NCBI RefSeq assembly: GCF_000092125.1
Contig: NC_014212.1
Span: 888,001-952,000, forward strand
Source: Allomeiothermus silvanus DSM 9946
Lineage (GTDB): Bacteria; Deinococcota; Deinococci; Deinococcales; Thermaceae
DNA: 64,000 nucleotides
Reading direction: 5' to 3'
Shown here: positions 4,618 to 19,833 of the stretch, in pieces
Numbering within the stretch: position 1 is the stretch's first letter
How the letters are laid out: each line of letters starts with the position of its first letter
The notes under the pieces: generated by a model
What the model was told of the DNA's origin: nothing
The model's input: the letters and a program-made list of their open reading frames with translations, nothing else
The model's database searches: none
Translations under genes and position numbers: made by a program

Positions 4618-5733
4618 ATGAAGGCTATCCTGTACCACGCCTCCATTCCCCGCTTCGTTGCGGCGCGGCTGTTGGGTAAGCGCTTCCCGGCTAGGGCGCT
4701 CCCCCTCAGGTGCGTAAGCTTACCCGAGCCCGAGCCCCTGCACGGCTATGAGCGCCTCAGGGTGCGGATGAGCGGGATCTGCGGTTCGGACTTGGCGTTG
4801 CTCTACGGCAAGAATTCCCCTGCCATCTCCCCTTTTTTCTCCTTCCCGGCAGTGCTGGGTCACGAGATCCTGGCCGAGCTGGGCGGGGTGCGGGTGGCGG
4901 TGAACCCGGTGCTCAGTTGCCTCGAGCGCGGCCTGCCCGATTGCCCGGCCTGTGCGCGGGGTGAAGACCATCTCTGCCAGAACATCGCCGAGGGTAACCT
5001 CTCCTCGAGCCTACTCGGCTTCTGCGCGGAGCTACCCGGCGGCTGGAGTCAGCGCATCCTGGCCCACCGCGAGCGCATTCACCCTATCCCCGAAGGGGTT
5101 CCCGACGAGCGGGCGGTGCTTACCGAGCCCTTGGCGGTGGTGGTGCGCGGGGTTAAACAGGGGCTGGCTAAGGACTGGCCCAAGGACGTACTGGTGATCG
5201 GGGCGGGAACCATCGGGTTGCTCACGGTAAAGGCTTTGCGGGTGCTGGGTTTTGCGGGCCCGATCCACGTGGTGGCTCGCCGTAGCCGTCAGGTCGAACT
5301 GGCCAAGGCCCTGGGGGCGAGCGCCACCCACGCCTCTACCGCCGAGGCCCAAAAAGCCTACGGGGCCAAGCGTTACCGGGGAGCCCTGGGAGCCACCGCC
5401 TGGCGCGGCGGCTTCGATGCGGTAATCGAGGCTTCGGGCAGCCCCGGCGGGCTTCAGGAGGCCAGTTGGGCGGTGCGCGAGGGCGGGCGGGTGGTGCTGC
5501 TCGGCGCCCCCGGCCAAGCCTGGCACGACTTCTCGCCCTACTGGTTCCGCGAGGTGCGCCTCTTCGGCAGCTACTGCTATAGCTGGGACGACTTCGCCGA
5601 GACGGTGAAGATGCTCCCTTATGCCGAGGGGATCGAGCAACTGGTAGGGGAGAAGTACCCGCTCGAGGCCTGGCCCGAGGCGATCAAGGCCGCAGCGACC
5701 CGCAAGGGCTCGAAGGTCGTGTTCAAGCCTTGA
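4618..5733 (+). CDS. zinc-containing alcohol dehydrogenase (MDR family)
   Basis: A medium-chain dehydrogenase of 371 residues from ATG 4618 (MKAILYHAS); an in-frame ATG at 4552 would add 22 residues with no family match. Catalytic zinc ligands are in SGICGSD and LGHEILAELG. A structural-zinc cysteine cluster spans CLERGLPDCPACARGEDHLC. The Rossmann loop is VIGAGTIGLL and the SGSPGG / GGRVVLLGAP segment is typical. The family oxidises secondary alcohols, polyols or L-threonine with NAD(P). The substrate is unknown; the nearby aldolase suggests polyol or sugar metabolism, but only weakly. Confidence 0.85.
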   Translation: MKAILYHASIPRFVAARLLGKRFPARALPLRCVSLPEPEPLHGYERLRVRMSGICGSDLALLYGKNSPAISPFFSFPAVLGHEILAELGGVRVAVNPVLSCLERGLPDCPACARGEDHLCQNIAEGNLSSSLLGFCAELPGGWSQRILAHRERIHPIPEGVPDERAVLTEPLAVVVRGVKQGLAKDWPKDVLVIGAGTIGLLTVKALRVLGFAGPIHVVARRSRQVELAKALGASATHASTAEAQKAYGAKRYRGALGATAWRGGFDAVIEASGSPGGLQEASWAVREGGRVVLLGAPGQAWHDFSPYWFREVRLFGSYCYSWDDFAETVKMLPYAEGIEQLVGEKYPLEAWPEAIKAAATRKGSKVVFKP

Positions 5734-5784
5734 GGTGTGGGGTAACGCAAAACCCCAGTGCTCGAGTAGGGCTAGGCTCGAGGC

Positions 5785-5943
5785 ATGTCCGAGACACCCG
5801 AGCAAAAAGACAGCCAGTTGGAAGGGCAGCGCACCGACCCCGATCGTTCCGTACAGCGCGCGAGCCTTACCGGTTACGTGGTTATGGGGCTGGTGGTGGT
5901 TGTAGTGTTTTTGCTCATCTACATGCTGGCCCCTCGGGGCTAG
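5785..5943 (+). CDS. small single-pass membrane protein (52 aa)
   Basis: A 52-codon frame starts with MSETPEQKDSQLEG, has a polar N-terminal half and ends with one hydrophobic helix (GYVVMGLVVVVVFLLIYML, about residues 30-48) and a short APRG tail. TAGGCT ends six bases upstream of the ATG, the leaderless spacing seen at other genes in the window. It sits 50 bp after the dehydrogenase and 63 bp before the antiporter gene on the same strand. Function unknown; predicted N-in/C-out helper peptide. Confidence 0.55.
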   Translation: MSETPEQKDSQLEGQRTDPDRSVQRASLTGYVVMGLVVVVVFLLIYMLAPRG

Positions 5944-6006
5944 CAGCCGCGAAGGTTTTGCCTTGCCGAACGCTTTGGGCAGGGAAATCGTCATTACAAT
6001 ACGAGC

Positions 6007-7077
6007 ATGCTGAACTACATTCTCCTCGTCTTCGTGCCAATTGCTTTAGTGCTCGAGCTGCTGCACGCTCCGGGGGTATGGATCTTTATCGTATCGGCCC
6101 TGGCGCTTTTGCCGCTGGCGAGTTGGATGGGCCGGGCCACCGAGGAACTCGCAGCCCGCACCGGGAGTACCGTAGGCGGGCTCTTAAATGCCACTTTCGG
6201 CAACGCCGCCGAGCTGATCATCGCAGGGGTGGCTTTGGCGGCGGGAAAGCTCGAGGTAGTGAAAGCCTCGATCACCGGTTCGATCCTCTCCAACTTGCTT
6301 TTGGTGTTGGGGCTTTCGATCTTCCTGGGGGGGTTGCGCTTCAACACCCAACGCTTCAACGCCAACTCGGCCAACATCATGGCGACGCTTCTGGTGCTTT
6401 CGATGGTGGCCTTTTTGCTCCCGGCCTTCTTCGACTTAGCCGAGCGTACTTACTTTCGGGTAGACCCCACCCTGCCCGATCTTGATTTCAGCCATGCAGC
6501 GGCCATAGTGCTGGTTTTGGTGTACCTGGCCAATATCTGGTTCAGCCTGCGCACCCACCGCGATCTGGTAAGCGGGCGCGATGAAACCCACCTCGAGGAC
6601 CACCCGGCTACTTGGAGCGTTCCGGTCTCGATCGGAGTGCTGGCAGCAGCCACGGTAGGGGTGGCGGTGATGGCCGAGTTTTTGGTGGGGAGCCTCGAGG
6701 CCGCCACCTCGGTGCTGGGTCTATCCGAGTTCTTCGTGGGGATCATCCTGATCCCGCTGGTCGGCAACGCCGCCGAGCACTTCGCGGCGATCGGCTTCGC
6801 CATCAAGAACAAAATGGACCTGGCGGTACAGATCGCCATCGGCTCAGCCCTCCAGATTGCCCTGCTGGTCGCGCCGCTGCTCATCCTTCTGGGTTGGATC
6901 ATCGGCCGGCCGATGAACCTGGTATTCCAAAATCCCCTCGAGCTGGCCGCCCTAGCAGCTAGCATCATTGCCACCAACGCGGTGGTACGGGATGGGGAGA
7001 CCAACTGGCTGGAAGGTTTTTTGCTGCTAGGGGTTTACGTGCTGCTGGGGTTCGCGTTCTTCTTCACGCCGAGGTAG
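6007..7077 (+). CDS. Ca2+/H+ antiporter (CaCA superfamily)
   Basis: An integral membrane exchanger of 356 residues with about eleven hydrophobic segments. It carries the two duplicated alpha-repeat motifs that bind the cation, NATFGNAAELI (about residue 60) and PLVGNAAEHF (about residue 255). Length and motifs fit ChaA/VCX1-type Ca2+/H+ antiporters, which export calcium using the proton gradient. ATG 6007 lies six bases after TACAAT (5995-6000), suggesting a leaderless transcript. Confidence 0.9.
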   Translation: MLNYILLVFVPIALVLELLHAPGVWIFIVSALALLPLASWMGRATEELAARTGSTVGGLLNATFGNAAELIIAGVALAAGKLEVVKASITGSILSNLLLVLGLSIFLGGLRFNTQRFNANSANIMATLLVLSMVAFLLPAFFDLAERTYFRVDPTLPDLDFSHAAAIVLVLVYLANIWFSLRTHRDLVSGRDETHLEDHPATWSVPVSIGVLAAATVGVAVMAEFLVGSLEAATSVLGLSEFFVGIILIPLVGNAAEHFAAIGFAIKNKMDLAVQIAIGSALQIALLVAPLLILLGWIIGRPMNLVFQNPLELAALAASIIATNAVVRDGETNWLEGFLLLGVYVLLGFAFFFTPR

Positions 7078-7138
7078 TCTCGTACTGTTCGACGCTATAC
7101 GTCTTGACCCTCAAGCCCCAACTCTCGACCATATACCC

Positions 7139-8371
7139 ATGAGCGCACTCGCTGGCCTTCGTGTTCTAGACCTCTCGCGCGTGCTGGCCGGGCCGTACTG
7201 CACCCAGATACTCGCCGATCTGGGGGCTGTGGTGTGGAAAATTGAACCCCCCTGGGGCGACGAAACCCGCAGTTGGGGGCCTCCCTTTATCGAACCTGAC
7301 GGATGTGCCGCTTGGAAGCCGGGGCCGAAAGGGGAGAGTGCGTATTACCTCTCGGTGAACCGGAATAAGAAAAGCCTGGCGATCAACCTGAAAGACCCTC
7401 GAGGGGCCGAACTCGTGCGGCGACTGGCTGAGAGGGCGGATGTGCTGGTGGAGAACTACAAGGTGGGCGACCTGGCCCGCTACGGCTTGGATTACGCGAC
7501 CCTAGCTGCCCTCAACCCGCGGCTTATCTACCTCTCGGTAACCGGTTATGGGCAGACCGGGCCGCGGCGGGGAGAGCCCGGTTACGATGTGGCGGTGCAG
7601 GGGCTTATTGGCATCATGTCGGTGACGGGTGAGCCGGAGGGGCCGCCGATGCGGGTGCCAGTGGCCTGGATCGACCTGATGACCGGGATGAACGGAGCCA
7701 TCGCGGTGCTGGCGGCGCTCTTGGAGCGACAAACCAGCGGCCTGGGGCAGCACATTGATCTGGCCCTTTTTGACGTGGGCCTGGCTGCGATGGCCAATCT
7801 AGCGCAAAGCTATCTCCTCACCGGCGAGCTTCCGGCTCGCTTGGGCAACGACCACCCGCAAATCGTGCCGTACGGGGCGTTTGAGGCCGCCGACGGCTGG
7901 TTTATGCTCACTATCGGCAACGACGAGCAGTACCGCCGGTTTTGTGGGGCCATCGGCCACCTCGAGCTGTGGGAGGATCCCCGCTTCCAGAGCAACCCCA
8001 GCCGGGTCGAGCACCGAACAGAACTCGTCGGGCGGCTCGCAGAAATCTTGCGCACCCGGCCCAGAAACCACTGGCTGAGCCTGCTGCGGGAGGCTGGGGT
8101 TCCCGCTACCCCGGTCAACACCCTGGCCGAAGCCTTTGCCGAGCCACAGACCCAAGCCCGGCGGATGCGGGAGGAGGCCCAGCACCCCACGCTCGGAAGG
8201 ATCCCCCTCCTGGGGAGCCCGCTAGGCCATCTCTCGCGCACCCCCGCCGCGATCCGCCAGGCCCCACCGCTCTTGGGGGCCGATACGCTCGAGGTTTTGC
8301 ACGACGAACTGGGCTTGAGCGAGCCGGAAGTACTCGAGCTGGCCCAAGCCGGGGTACTCAAGCTACCGTAA
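7139..8371 (+). CDS. CaiB/BaiF family CoA transferase
   Basis: A class III CoA transferase of 410 residues, the normal length. Family landmarks are LAGPYCTQILADLGAVVWKIEPPWGD at the N-terminus, SVNRNKKSLAINLKD, and the catalytic Asp in VAWIDLMTGMNG (about residue 177). Such enzymes move CoA between carboxylic acids, for example formyl-, carnitine-, succinyl- or bile-acid-CoA. No partner lyase or dehydrogenase gene is adjacent, so the acid cannot be guessed. The following 120 bp hold a possible promoter and then an IS. Confidence 0.88.
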   Translation: MSALAGLRVLDLSRVLAGPYCTQILADLGAVVWKIEPPWGDETRSWGPPFIEPDGCAAWKPGPKGESAYYLSVNRNKKSLAINLKDPRGAELVRRLAERADVLVENYKVGDLARYGLDYATLAALNPRLIYLSVTGYGQTGPRRGEPGYDVAVQGLIGIMSVTGEPEGPPMRVPVAWIDLMTGMNGAIAVLAALLERQTSGLGQHIDLALFDVGLAAMANLAQSYLLTGELPARLGNDHPQIVPYGAFEAADGWFMLTIGNDEQYRRFCGAIGHLELWEDPRFQSNPSRVEHRTELVGRLAEILRTRPRNHWLSLLREAGVPATPVNTLAEAFAEPQTQARRMREEAQHPTLGRIPLLGSPLGHLSRTPAAIRQAPPLLGADTLEVLHDELGLSEPEVLELAQAGVLKLP

Positions 8372-16161: not shown

Positions 16162-16169
16162 GCGTGCAA

Positions 16170-16214: not shown

Positions 16215-17123
16215 ATGTATTTACTCATCGGTACGCCCTTTGACGCTTGTATCGAGCGGGTCCACCGGCGGCTTCAGGCCACGGGCGAGGAGGTGCTGGT
16301 TACGCCTGAGCCGCTGGCCGGGGAAGCCCAGGTGTGCTGGGACCTGACCACTGCCTATTCGCTGAGCCACCTGAGGTTGGGCCAGCGCTCCCTCAGCCAG
16401 GGGGATCTGCGCGGCGTGTTGGTGAGGGGCTCGGGGATACCCCTGCAAACTACCGACTGGGACCCTAAAGACTACGCCTACATGCAGGCCGAGGCCCAGT
16501 CGGCCTTGCTGGCCTGGCTTAAGAGCCTGCCCTGCCCGGTGGTCAACCCGGCTAGGGCCGAGACCTTTTACCGCGAGCGCACCTTGCCCGAACAGCGGGT
16601 CTGGCTCGCTCGAGCAGGCTTTCCTACCGCGCCGATCCTCGTCACCAACTCCCCTGCTGAGGCCCGCGGGTTTGCCCGGCGTTGGGGAGGCAACCTCAGC
16701 TACGTTCCCCTCACCTCAACCACCCGCTACCCCATCGATACCCCCGCGCAGTGGGCCGAACTCGAGCGCTTGATGACCCACTTTCCACTAGCTTTGATGG
16801 AGCCCGAAGGCCCCAGCTTCTACCTGAGCTTGGCCGCAGACCGATTGCTCTGGAGCGAGGGGCCAGATAGCCGGGTGGAACCTACCCCAAAACAAAAAGA
16901 GCGTCTCGGGGACGCCACCCGGCGGCTGGCTGGCTTGCTGGGGGTGCAGATGTTGCAAGTCGAAATTCAGCTCAGCGATGGGCATCCTCCCGGCTATCGC
17001 CGCGAAAATACGCCTCGAGCTTTCGGGTTCAGCTTATACCCGGAGTTCGCCCTATACGGCGAAGCCGAACAAGAGGAGCTGGCCCAAGGAGTCGTAGCTG
17101 CTTTGCAGGGGGTGCGGGCATGA
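16215..17123 (+). CDS. degenerate ATP-grasp paralogue (predicted pseudo-ligase)
   Basis: A 302-residue protein starting at ATG 16215 after GGAGAG. It aligns along its length with the next gene product: GVLVRG versus GVFVRY, PCPVVNPA versus PILVVNRA, APILVTNSPAEA versus PPTLVTSDPEAA, RRWGGNLSYVPLTST versus QRHGGEVVFKSLSGV. The ATP-binding Lys of VVFKSLSG is replaced (LSYVPLTS). The metal-binding FEINP segment is missing, replaced by a non-matching REN/FGFSLYP stretch. I infer an inactive ATP-grasp fold acting as regulatory or substrate-binding partner of the active paralogue. The stop overlaps the next start (ATGA). Confidence 0.75.
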   Translation: MYLLIGTPFDACIERVHRRLQATGEEVLVTPEPLAGEAQVCWDLTTAYSLSHLRLGQRSLSQGDLRGVLVRGSGIPLQTTDWDPKDYAYMQAEAQSALLAWLKSLPCPVVNPARAETFYRERTLPEQRVWLARAGFPTAPILVTNSPAEARGFARRWGGNLSYVPLTSTTRYPIDTPAQWAELERLMTHFPLALMEPEGPSFYLSLAADRLLWSEGPDSRVEPTPKQKERLGDATRRLAGLLGVQMLQVEIQLSDGHPPGYRRENTPRAFGFSLYPEFALYGEAEQEELAQGVVAALQGVRA

Positions 17124-18052
17124 TCTTGGTCTGCGGCGGCTTAGCCGACGTGGTCACCGAGCTGGTGTGCGCCCGGCTCGAGGCCCTCGGCTACCCCTAC
17201 CGGCTCCTCGACCTGGGGCTTTTTCCCGAGGGCTACCGGGTGGCCTGGCGCTGGGCCAAGGGCAAGCCCGGCGGGTGGGTGCACGGCCCTGGCTGGAAAC
17301 TGCACTTGAGCGAGGTGAGCGGGGTCTTCGTGCGCTATCTGGGCTCGGACGGGCACGCCCCGCTGCCGGAACTCTCCCCCGCGATGGCCGAGGCGGTGAT
17401 CGCCGAGAGCCAGGCTGGCCTGATGGCCTTGCTCGAACACCTGCCCATCTTGGTGGTGAACCGCGCGGCCCCTTCGGTTTCTAACCACTCCAAGCCCTAT
17501 CAGGCCCTCATGGTGCGGGATTCTGGCCTACAGACTCCACCTACCCTGGTTACCAGCGACCCGGAAGCTGCGCTCGAGTTCTACCAACGCCACGGTGGCG
17601 AAGTCGTCTTCAAATCCTTGAGCGGGGTGCGTTCGGTGGTGCGCAAGATGAACCCCTCCGACCTGGAGCGGCTGCACCTGTTGCGGCACGGGGCAGCACA
17701 GTTCCAGCGTTATTTGCCGGGCGACAACGTGCGGGTTCACACCGTCGGTGACGAGATATTCGCCACCCGCATTCGCTCGGAGGCGGTGGATTATCGCTAC
17801 GCCCGGCGGCAAGGTCACGCCGCCGAGATGGAGCCCACCGACCTGCCAGATTCGGTGGCCGAAGCTTGCTTGCGACTGGCCCGCTCGAGCGGTCTTTATC
17901 TCGCAGGCATCGACTTGAAGCAGACCCCCCAAGACGAGTGGTATTGCTTCGAGATCAACCCTTGCCCAGGATTTGCCTACTACGAGCAGCATACCGGCCA
18001 GCCTATCAGTGCCGCACTGGCCGAACTGCTCAAGGCAGGCCTCCGGGCCTAA
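17120..18052 (+). CDS. RimK-like ATP-grasp ligase
   Basis: A 310-residue ATP-grasp protein with an N-terminal pre-ATP-grasp domain (about 1-125). The nucleotide-binding half shows GGEVVFKSLSGVRS (ATP-binding Lys), FQRYLPGDNVRVHTVGDEIF, and the metal/catalytic end GIDLKQ...WYCFEINPCPGF with Asp, Glu and Asn ligands. The layout fits RimK/glutathione-synthase-type enzymes and the ligases of graspetide (microviridin-like) pathways. These activate a carboxylate as acyl-phosphate and join it to an amine or hydroxyl. Translationally coupled to the degenerate paralogue and 12 bp before the repeat protein gene. Substrate unknown. Confidence 0.82.
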   Translation: MILVCGGLADVVTELVCARLEALGYPYRLLDLGLFPEGYRVAWRWAKGKPGGWVHGPGWKLHLSEVSGVFVRYLGSDGHAPLPELSPAMAEAVIAESQAGLMALLEHLPILVVNRAAPSVSNHSKPYQALMVRDSGLQTPPTLVTSDPEAALEFYQRHGGEVVFKSLSGVRSVVRKMNPSDLERLHLLRHGAAQFQRYLPGDNVRVHTVGDEIFATRIRSEAVDYRYARRQGHAAEMEPTDLPDSVAEACLRLARSSGLYLAGIDLKQTPQDEWYCFEINPCPGFAYYEQHTGQPISAALAELLKAGLRA

Positions 18053-18064
18053 GGAGAGAAGCCC

Positions 18065-18568
18065 ATGGCAGAAAAAGAACCTTTCGTACCGCAGGAAGAC
18101 CGGCCCAATGTGGAGTTGCCCAAGCCCGACCAGCCCCTCACCGAGCTGCGGGTACGCGACCTGAGCGCGCTGCTGGGCAATGCCTTGGCCATCAAGCCCT
18201 GGTTCAAGGACCTGAAGGACCATAAGTTCGAGAAGTTCGAAAAACCCGAGTTCAAGGAGTGGAAGGATCACAAGCACGAGAAGTTCGAGAAGCCCGAGCA
18301 CAAGGAGTTCAAAGACCACAAGCACGAGAAGTTTGAGAAACCCGAGATCAAAGACGGCAAACACGAGAAGTTCGAGATCCAAGAGCCCAAGCAGTTCAGC
18401 CTCGAGCCCGGACCCGGCAAGGGAGCAGGCTTCGAGCCCGGCCCTGACCCCACCAAGCGTTTTGAGGAGGTCATCAACCAGGTTATCCAGACCGTGAGCG
18501 AGCTTAAGGCCTCGGTGGACAAGCTGGGTGAGCGGGTGAGCGCCTTGGAAAAAGGCCGACGCGGCTAA
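18065..18568 (+). CDS. Lys/Glu/His/Phe repeat protein of the ATP-grasp cluster (candidate substrate)
   Basis: A 167-residue protein. The N-terminal 50 residues contain an amphipathic segment (LTELRVRDLSALLGNAL). Residues 51-104 are tandem 16-residue units, consensus KDHKHEKFEKPEHKEF. A Gly/Pro linker (EPGPGKGAGFEPGPDP) follows, then a heptad-like helix at about 133-163 (FEEVINQVIQTVSELKASV) that should form a coiled coil. There is no signal peptide. GGAGAG precedes the ATG. Placement right behind a RimK-like ligase and the dense Glu/Lys repeat suggest a substrate for side-chain amide formation or amino-acid addition; a scaffold role is equally possible. A terminator follows within 15 bp. Confidence 0.7.
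   Translation: MAEKEPFVPQEDRPNVELPKPDQPLTELRVRDLSALLGNALAIKPWFKDLKDHKFEKFEKPEFKEWKDHKHEKFEKPEHKEFKDHKHEKFEKPEIKDGKHEKFEIQEPKQFSLEPGPGKGAGFEPGPDPTKRFEEVINQVIQTVSELKASVDKLGERVSALEKGRRG
18215..18376 (+). repeat. 48-bp coding tandem repeat (3 full units plus a partial)
   Basis: Units at 18215-18262, 18263-18310 and 18311-18358 encode 16 residues each, and a fourth partial unit continues to about 18376. Units 2 and 3 differ mostly at third positions and in the last three codons, so the array is maintained by coding selection or unequal exchange. Confidence 0.85.
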
Positions 18569-19833
18569 CCATAAGCAAGTTTGCCAGCCCCTAGGGCCTT
18601 GGGGGCTGGCGAATTTTGCGAACAAAAACGTCCCCGGCTTCCTGACGGCACCCGTTCCGGGGCACTTAGGGCTGCTGCCTTCCGGCCCTGACCCGGTTCA
18701 TGCTGGAACGCCGCGTCAGACCGAGGACGCTCGAGAATCGTAGCACATCCAGGGGGCAAAAGAAAGCCTATGTAATCGGTCAACACATTTGAGACTCTTT
18801 GAGGAACCGACTCCTCTTGCATCTTAGCCAAAAACTCCAGCGGAGCAAGACCCCCCAGGGCCATGTGAGGCCTTCGGCGGGTGTAGTAGTCCAGGTAGGT
18901 ATCCAGCTCTGCCTGCAGCTCGCTGAGCGGGGTGGGCAAAGGCCGGGTGTAGAACTCCTCCTTGAAGGTCCGCTGCATCCGCTCCACGTGACCATTGAGT
19001 TTAGGACTCCTCGGCGGTAGCACAAACAAGGCAATCCCCAGAGCACAGCAGGCCTCCTCAAACTCGGCCATGAACTCGCTGCCCCCATCCACCTGGATGG
19101 CCCGGATGGGAAAAGGGGCCCTGGCCAGAAGCAAGGACAAGAACCCCTCAGAAAGCTTAGCCGTGGCCCGGCTGTGCACCTCCGCCAGGACAAACCGGCT
19201 ATGGAGGTCAATCGCCGAGAAGTGCTTGACCATGCTTCCCGGTCCTAAGGTCAGGGTGAGGGTGTCCACCTGGACCAGGTCCCCAGGAGCCCTGGCCTCG
19301 TATCCTCGGGGCTTCCTTTTGGCGTAGGGCCGGTTTACCCTTCGCTTTAGCTTCCCTCTTTGAGTCCGGGCCAGGTAGCCGGCCACGCTCTCGATACGTC
19401 GGTGCTTCTCCAGGTAGGCCAGGATGCGCCCCACCGTGCGTTCGCTCATCTGGAAACCCTCCTTGCGGAGGGTAAGCCAGATGGACCAGCGTCCCCAGGT
19501 GGGGTTTTCCTTGCGGAGAGTTTCTATTCTAATGAGCAGCCCTGGGGTCCAGTGGACCTTTGTGCGCAGGTGCTTAGGGCGGCGGGAGCGGGGTTTGAGT
19601 CCAGCCAGGCCCTTTTCTTTTAGGGCTTTTTGCCAGCGGTGGTAGGTGGCCCGGCTGATCCCGACCAGGTCCTGGATCTCCTTCCAGCTCTTTTTACTTT
19701 CACGCAGGGCTTTGACCAGTCGGAGCTTGCGCAGACGTTCCTGGACCTCTGGGTCGCTTGCGTTGGCCTCGGCCAGCCTCTGTGCTTGTCTAGCGCCTCT
19801 CCATATCTCTCGGCCAACGGTGGTAAACTGCAC
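18565..19833 (-). CDS. IS481-like DDE transposase, copy 2, open frame running out of the IS
   Basis: The transposase proper (359-residue type, motifs as in copy 1) is encoded from 19833 to the element end at 18771; one residue differs (YTRRRP instead of YNRRRP). There is no stop inside the element, so translation would continue 200 bp antisense to nothing but straight through the SRP RNA gene, adding about 67 unrelated residues before the stop at 18565. The added tail is probably meaningless. Any ribosome following it would traverse SRP RNA sequence. Confidence 0.85.
   Translation of the reverse strand: MQFTTVGREIWRGARQAQRLAEANASDPEVQERLRKLRLVKALRESKKSWKEIQDLVGISRATYHRWQKALKEKGLAGLKPRSRRPKHLRTKVHWTPGLLIRIETLRKENPTWGRWSIWLTLRKEGFQMSERTVGRILAYLEKHRRIESVAGYLARTQRGKLKRRVNRPYAKRKPRGYEARAPGDLVQVDTLTLTLGPGSMVKHFSAIDLHSRFVLAEVHSRATAKLSEGFLSLLLARAPFPIRAIQVDGGSEFMAEFEEACCALGIALFVLPPRSPKLNGHVERMQRTFKEEFYTRPLPTPLSELQAELDTYLDYYTRRRPHMALGGLAPLEFLAKMQEESVPQRVSNVLTDYIGFLLPPGCATILERPRSDAAFQHEPGQGRKAAALSAPERVPSGSRGRFCSQNSPAPKALGAGKLAYG
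18583..18610. terminator. bidirectional hairpin terminator between the ATP-grasp cluster and SRP RNA
   Basis: GCCAGCCCC and GGGGGCTGGC pair around a short loop. It lies 15 bp after the repeat-protein stop on the plus strand and 20 bp after the SRP RNA 3' end on the minus strand. T-rich tracts flank it loosely on both sides. Confidence 0.65.
18630..18729 (-). ncRNA. ffs: signal recognition particle 4.5S-type RNA
   Basis: On the minus strand the 100-nt segment has the universal SRP domain IV: GGGTCAGGGCCGGAAGGCAG then CAGCC, with the GGAA tetraloop and asymmetric internal loop that bind Ffh. Its ends, GTCCTCGG and CCGGGGAC, pair with one wobble to close a single long hairpin, as in small bacterial SRP RNAs. 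It has its own extended -10 seven bases upstream and a hairpin terminator downstream. An IS481-like element sits 41 bp upstream of the 5' end. Confidence 0.92.
18737..18745 (-). promoter_or_regulatory. extended -10 of the SRP RNA promoter
   Basis: On the minus strand TGCTACGAT is an extended -10 (TGn + TACGAT) ending seven bases before the SRP RNA 5' end. There is no good -35: the bases 17 upstream read TTTCTT. The IS481-like element begins at 18771, just upstream of that position, so any activating or UP sequence has been replaced by IS DNA. Confidence 0.6.

Follow-up and report, generated by a model that had tools for sequence, protein, structure and literature searches.

Why should a bacterial genome keep, directly in front of an apparently intact ATP-grasp ligase, a second copy of that ligase from which the catalytic residues have gone? 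The question is raised by a locus of the hot-water bacterium Allomeiothermus (Meiothermus) silvanus DSM 9946, lying in the 64,000-nucleotide stretch of contig NC_014212.1 that was analysed here (the window). The locus encodes the pseudo-ATP-grasp partner P0001, the ligase P0002 and a third protein rich in charged repeats, P0003 (Table 1). P0001 and P0002 are ATP-grasp paralogues, and the coordinates and reading frames given for them in an earlier, sequence-only reading of the window are correct. The likely start of P0001 is the ATG at 16215, just preceded by GGAGAG, with the GTG at 16164 as a possible longer start. The sequence-only reading took the overlap of the two genes to imply equal synthesis. 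An overlap of 4 nt between partner and active ligase, found in 8 of the 13 paired loci described below (partner first in all of them), points to coupled translation; a 1:1 ratio does not follow from it. The two proteins had also been described as aligning end to end. This holds at the profile level (hhalign probability 99.9, E 2.4e-34, columns 1-293 against 1-309) and for the predicted fold, but BLASTP covers only residues 1-169 of P0001 (29% identity, E 1e-10). Upstream of the pair lies P0004, which had no match in family-model searches. It is not supported as a conserved component: it lies upstream of the pair only in the window and in G001, and G005 and G011 have no copy there. On the minus strand, a transposase-like ORF (18565-19833) meets P0003 at its 3' end; none was seen beside the trio in G001. 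Matches in a promoter and terminator scan were at chance level.

Table 1. Features of the paired ATP-grasp locus, in coordinates of the window.
Feature	Position	Strand	Remarks
P0004	14071-16161		696 aa; internal halves resemble each other; 53 nt before P0001
P0001	16215..17123	+	Pseudo-ATP-grasp partner, 302 aa
V164 of P0001 (LSYVPLTS)	16704..16706	+	In the place of P0002 K165, by alignment
ATGA overlap, P0001 stop/P0002 start	17120..17123	+	4 nt, read from sequence
P0002	17120..18052	+	Intact graspetide-synthetase-like ATP-grasp ligase, 310 aa
K165 of P0002 (VVFKSLSG)	17612..17614	+	ATP-binding Lys; invariant in 16/16 aligned actives
D224-Y225-R226 of P0002	17789..17797	+	Counterpart of graspetide DFR motif; DYR in 13/13 paired actives, 0 partners
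E278 and N280 of P0002 (FEINP)	17951..17959	+	ExN metal-binding motif; invariant in 16/16 aligned actives, 0 partners
P0003	18065..18568	+	K/H/E-repeat protein, 167 aa; candidate precursor/substrate; follows P0002 by 12 nt
Tag candidate FVPQEDRPNV of P0003	18083..18112	+	Pattern F[IV]xxxxRPx[VIL]
Leader-like stretch of P0003, LTELRVRDLSALLGNAL	18137..18187	+	Conserved in Thermaceae loci, L018 and L041
K/H/E repeat core of P0003	18203..18394	+	16-aa unit; TRF period 48 nt, 3.2 copies, score 189
Coiled-coil-like C-terminal segment of P0003	18461..18553	+	Conserved in A3; weak ZapB-like match only

Judged by its sequence, P0002 is a full graspetide (microviridin-type RiPP) synthetase-like ligase, whose activity is predicted. 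It is matched by TIGR04187 (E 6e-47), MvdD (1e-31) and MvdC (4e-27), with every score under the curated cut-off (for TIGR04187, 160 bits against 350 bits). The best PDB sequence match is PsnB (E 8e-24), and MdnC, PruB, CdnC, MdnB and AMdnB are also found. Other ATP-grasp families, the RimK-like ones included, are weaker candidates for its best home by model score. A search for plasmid and viral homologues of P0002 found none. The DFR motif of graspetide synthetases, to which DYR of P0002 corresponds, has been called critical (PMC13097080).

P0001 has taken the opposite course. The loss of the ATP-binding lysine and of the Glu/Asn motif, already seen in the sequence-only reading, is borne out by the alignment, in which K165 is replaced by V164 and the Glu and Asn of FEINP are absent. 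Counterparts of K125, of the QFQ and DYR motifs and of D265 are missing too, i.e. every catalytic position checked is lost. The position of V164 is occupied by valine in Thermaceae and by A, T, G or S in other full-length partners. P0001 matches TIGR04187 over residues 8-170 only (E 6e-10) and no Pfam family. Its AlphaFold2 model (pLDDT 83.7, pTM 0.82) nevertheless has PruB, CdnC, AMdnB, MdnC and PsnB as top Foldseek matches, ahead of RimK, LysX and Ddl, with query-normalised TM-scores of 0.62-0.75 to graspetide macrocyclases. Since the nearest structures are graspetide macrocyclases, P0001 is a degenerate graspetide synthetase rather than a generic ATP-grasp protein.

Searches of the Thermaceae (50 genomes), the rest of the phylum and Chloroflexota (whose loci come mostly from fragmentary assemblies) yielded 13 loci with an active ligase of the P0002 clade, and in all 13 a partner is encoded directly upstream. 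These paired loci belong to two phyla, being found in Thermaceae (4/50 genomes) and in Chloroflexota. Eleven partners are comparable, since that of L057 (near-identical to L044) is cut by a contig end and that of L072 is partly masked. In the alignment, K125, K165, QFQ, DYR, D265, E278 and N280 are all kept in 13/13 paired actives, and none of them is kept in any of the 11 comparable partners. The pairing of an active with an inactive paralogue, proposed from the window alone, is therefore general among these loci, and orthologues of P0001, which had been singled out as a check, have retained the active site in none of the 11 comparable loci of the two phyla. Partners in L043 and L044 are truncated to about 230-240 aa, with the ATP lid deleted together with the position of V164; this deletion is the far end of the same trend. 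Constraint on the partner is uneven: 24-25% of columns are invariant in the N domain and lid, and 2% in the C-terminal third, versus 44% in the C-terminal third of the active.

Nei-Gojobori dN/dS in Thermaceae, where some pairs had a high dS, shows purifying selection on the partner (0.17-0.24); the active gave 0.13-0.15 and P0003 0.006-0.16. In the phylogenetic tree, partners form one clade (99/98) and paired actives another (95/95), and the single-ligase ATP-grasps likewise make up one side of a branch (100/98). Partner and active have co-diversified: the mirror-tree correlation of their distances is r 0.90 (0/5000 permutations), and r 0.82 with one Thermaceae row (3/5000 permutations). Since the same pair is found in two bacterial phyla, the dead copy has evidently kept some job.

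The sequence-only reading had noted neither the graspetide character of the locus nor its likely substrate, P0003, which is encoded directly after the pair. Its ATG is preceded by AAGGAGAG, a good ribosome-binding site, and its N-terminus is conserved (FVPQEDRPNVEL ... LTELRVRDLSALL). P0003, P0001 and P0002 are present in exactly the same 4/50 Thermaceae genomes, and counterparts of P0003 follow the pair in two Chloroflexota genomes (L018 and L041). The 64-aa core contains 19 Lys, 14 Glu and 5 Asp residues and no Ser, Thr or Cys, and has 27 repeated 4-mers versus 1.6 in shuffles. Both donor (Lys) and acceptor (Asp/Glu) residues expected of a graspetide precursor are thus present in P0003, near the ligase. 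None of the family models, RiPP precursor families included, matched P0003. P0003 is probably what the ligase pair crosslinks.

P0003 also carries a short recognition-tag candidate that extends beyond its own family. P0003 or a protein encoded nearby carries the pattern F[IV]xxxxRPx[VIL] in 12/12 paired loci tested; linkage to the ligase was seen in 0/11 single-ATP-grasp loci. There are 13 matches, one of them stray, in 248,774 residues of open frames versus 0.65 in shuffles, a comparison somewhat in favour of the pattern because the latter was loosened after the first examples. The carriers are diverse. On P0003-like proteins the tag is N-terminal. Elsewhere it sits at the C-terminus, behind tails rich in K, D and E: on a protein of 414 aa containing a HELVE sequence (L044), one of 510 aa that has an Ig-like domain (L043) and a DUF6519 protein of 1885 aa (L072). 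In L071 and L073 the ligase itself carries it, in an extension at the C-terminus; L071 has no obvious K/E-repeat core, and its SELTVRDL is related to the leader-like stretch of P0003. The C-terminal position, or the position on the ligase itself, in several loci sets the tag apart from a classical N-terminal leader. Because the partner and the tag are both markers of one clade, finding them together may reflect one event in its history and is not functional proof.

Two of the paired loci stand out by their gene content. In L073, the 583-aa active ligase (5926-7677) has an extension consisting of the tag followed by a region like the HELVE protein of L044, and the ORF appears to be a ligase-substrate-like fusion. 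In L042, the pair is followed by a 47-aa K/E-rich ORF (~5210-5350) and by a PqqD-like protein (5496-6029) with the tag variant FISSALRPPVG, and an HPr-kinase-like ORF lies beyond the PqqD-like protein and the peptide.

Taken together, we consider it fairly probable that this is a graspetide-type two-subunit RiPP locus, in which P0002 is the catalytic subunit, P0001 a non-catalytic partner and the repeats of P0003 are crosslinked. P0002 would use ATP to phosphorylate Glu/Asp side chains in the K/H/E repeats, and Lys side chains would attack the activated carboxylates, giving Lys-Glu/Asp isopeptide crosslinks within the repeats. Amide crosslinks would be expected because the repeat core is devoid of Ser, Thr and Cys. 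P0001 would be a conserved pseudo-ligase that has kept the fold, above all the N-terminal half and lid, and lost the catalytic residues. It would act as an obligate non-catalytic partner, most likely as a subunit of the kind of heterodimer proposed in the sequence-only reading, binding the F[IV]xxxxRPx[VIL] tag or leader and presenting the repeats to P0002, activating P0002, or both. The product may be a rigid, protease-resistant structural or surface protein.

The part assigned to P0001 is where a different view of a graspetide locus is easiest to hold. The pseudo-ligase could be a regulator, a chaperone or a solubility factor, comparable to MirC or CorC in other graspetides, or could serve in substrate release or immunity, instead of being the half of a heterodimer that reads the tag. 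Those partner-dependent graspetide synthetases that have been characterised rely on unrelated proteins for stabilisation or activation, and CorC, which activates CorB, was judged not to carry substrate (PMC13097080); the nearly unconstrained C-terminal third of the partner, compared to its N domain and lid, points in the same direction. However, P0001 is itself a ligase paralogue, from a family with dimers among its crystal structures (PMC10452190), and the tag co-occurs with the partner. We therefore regard this alternative as unlikely. The chemistry could differ as well, with a RimK-like P0002 adding amino acids (e.g. glutamate) to the charged tail, a plausible acceptor, and the pseudo-partner helping to bind that tail. 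P0002 does pass Pfam RimK (E 2e-7) and matches the TIGR00768 RimK-family model (1e-14), yet TIGR04187 is far better at 6e-47, the best PDB matches are graspetide macrocyclases and DYR, the DFR counterpart, is invariant in paired actives, making a RimK-like activity improbable. It is more doubtful still that P0003 stands outside the pathway of the pair, as an independent metal-binding or structural repeat protein merely adjoining the ligase. Exact co-occurrence in Thermaceae, adjacency in L018 and L041 and the presence of the tag at paired loci on otherwise unrelated proteins all speak against it, even though no family model recognises P0003 and His/Lys/Glu repeats could bind metal or polyanions unmodified. 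Finally, local decay of P0001 into a dying, functionless duplicate of P0002, for which the lost catalytic residues and the fast-evolving C-terminal third might be quoted, is effectively ruled out: the same residues are gone at 11 comparable loci of two phyla, dN/dS is about 0.2, the partners make up a single clade, the reading frames are intact, and gene order is conserved, with frequent overlap.

Graspetide-type ATP-grasps without a partner provide a separate set of observations. Directly upstream of such single ligases lie an astacin (L045:6584-8047), an M43 peptidase (L046:3792-5405) and a tyrosinase (L074:6134-7606). The C-terminal tails of these three enzymes consist of tandem K/[DE] (or T/K-D) repeats and are strongly repetitive, with 39, 44 and 23 repeated 4-mers versus 0.9, 2.9 and 0.5 in shuffles, respectively. 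This suggests that peptidases beside such single ligases are substrates and not processing enzymes. Tentatively, and with more doubt than for the two-subunit locus itself, a wider reading can be put forward: the dead synthetase would be a reader of F[IV]xxxxRPx[VIL], its active twin would crosslink Lys/Glu-repeat tails on unlike proteins, and the astacin, the M43 peptidase and the tyrosinase would be stapled substrates. If true, this would solve the missing-precursor puzzle of graspetide branches 7 and 8, where peptidases but no precursor are found, and would propose substrates for ligase groups reported without detectable precursors (PMC8939145). It would also mean that a two-subunit RiPP ligase can split recognition and chemistry between twin folds, that a portable tag could direct isopeptide stapling to the tails of unrelated proteins, and that thermophiles should contain repeat proteins of a new, covalently stiffened type.

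How does the locus compare with known systems? With the graspetide synthetases MvdC/MvdD, PsnB, CdnC and PruB, P0002 shares the family, the catalytic Lys, ExN and DFR/DYR, differing in that it scores under the curated cut-offs; P0001 shares the fold. Microviridin clusters have two active paralogues (MdnB and MdnC), whereas here one is dead in every comparable locus, and a microviridin-style pair of active ligases was rejected on this ground. The literature searched yielded no description of graspetide tails fused to enzymes, nor of this pair in Meiothermus. The closest precedent is provided by the branch 8 graspetide loci described in 2022, in which a truncated ATP-grasp, called catalytically inactive, lies beside the ligase, with peptidases near and no precursor found (PMC8939145). 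The truncated partners of L043 and L044 resemble branch 8, as compared by description, and the paired loci may correspond to an already published group, either branch 8 or RODEO groups 34/35. The arrangement, called unusual in the sequence-only reading, is thus partly precedented by branch 8. What sets the window apart is a partner that has degenerated at full length, a dedicated K/H/E-repeat protein as likely substrate, and a tag shared among the loci. Ligases that need a second protein are known from rosaritide and corallotide, the latter having a large precursor with Lys-Asp isopeptide repeats (PMC13097080); those two systems use a PPIase-like protein and a 2OG oxygenase in this role, whereas here it falls to a dead paralogue of the ligase. 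Activation of an active enzyme by its dead paralogue is known from AdoMetDC-prozyme (PMC5201418) and Fam20C-Fam20A (PMC5865150). Both are eukaryotic and belong to other enzyme families, and for P0001 activation is what we infer. Each part of the proposed mechanism has a separate precedent, and their combination would be a new variant.
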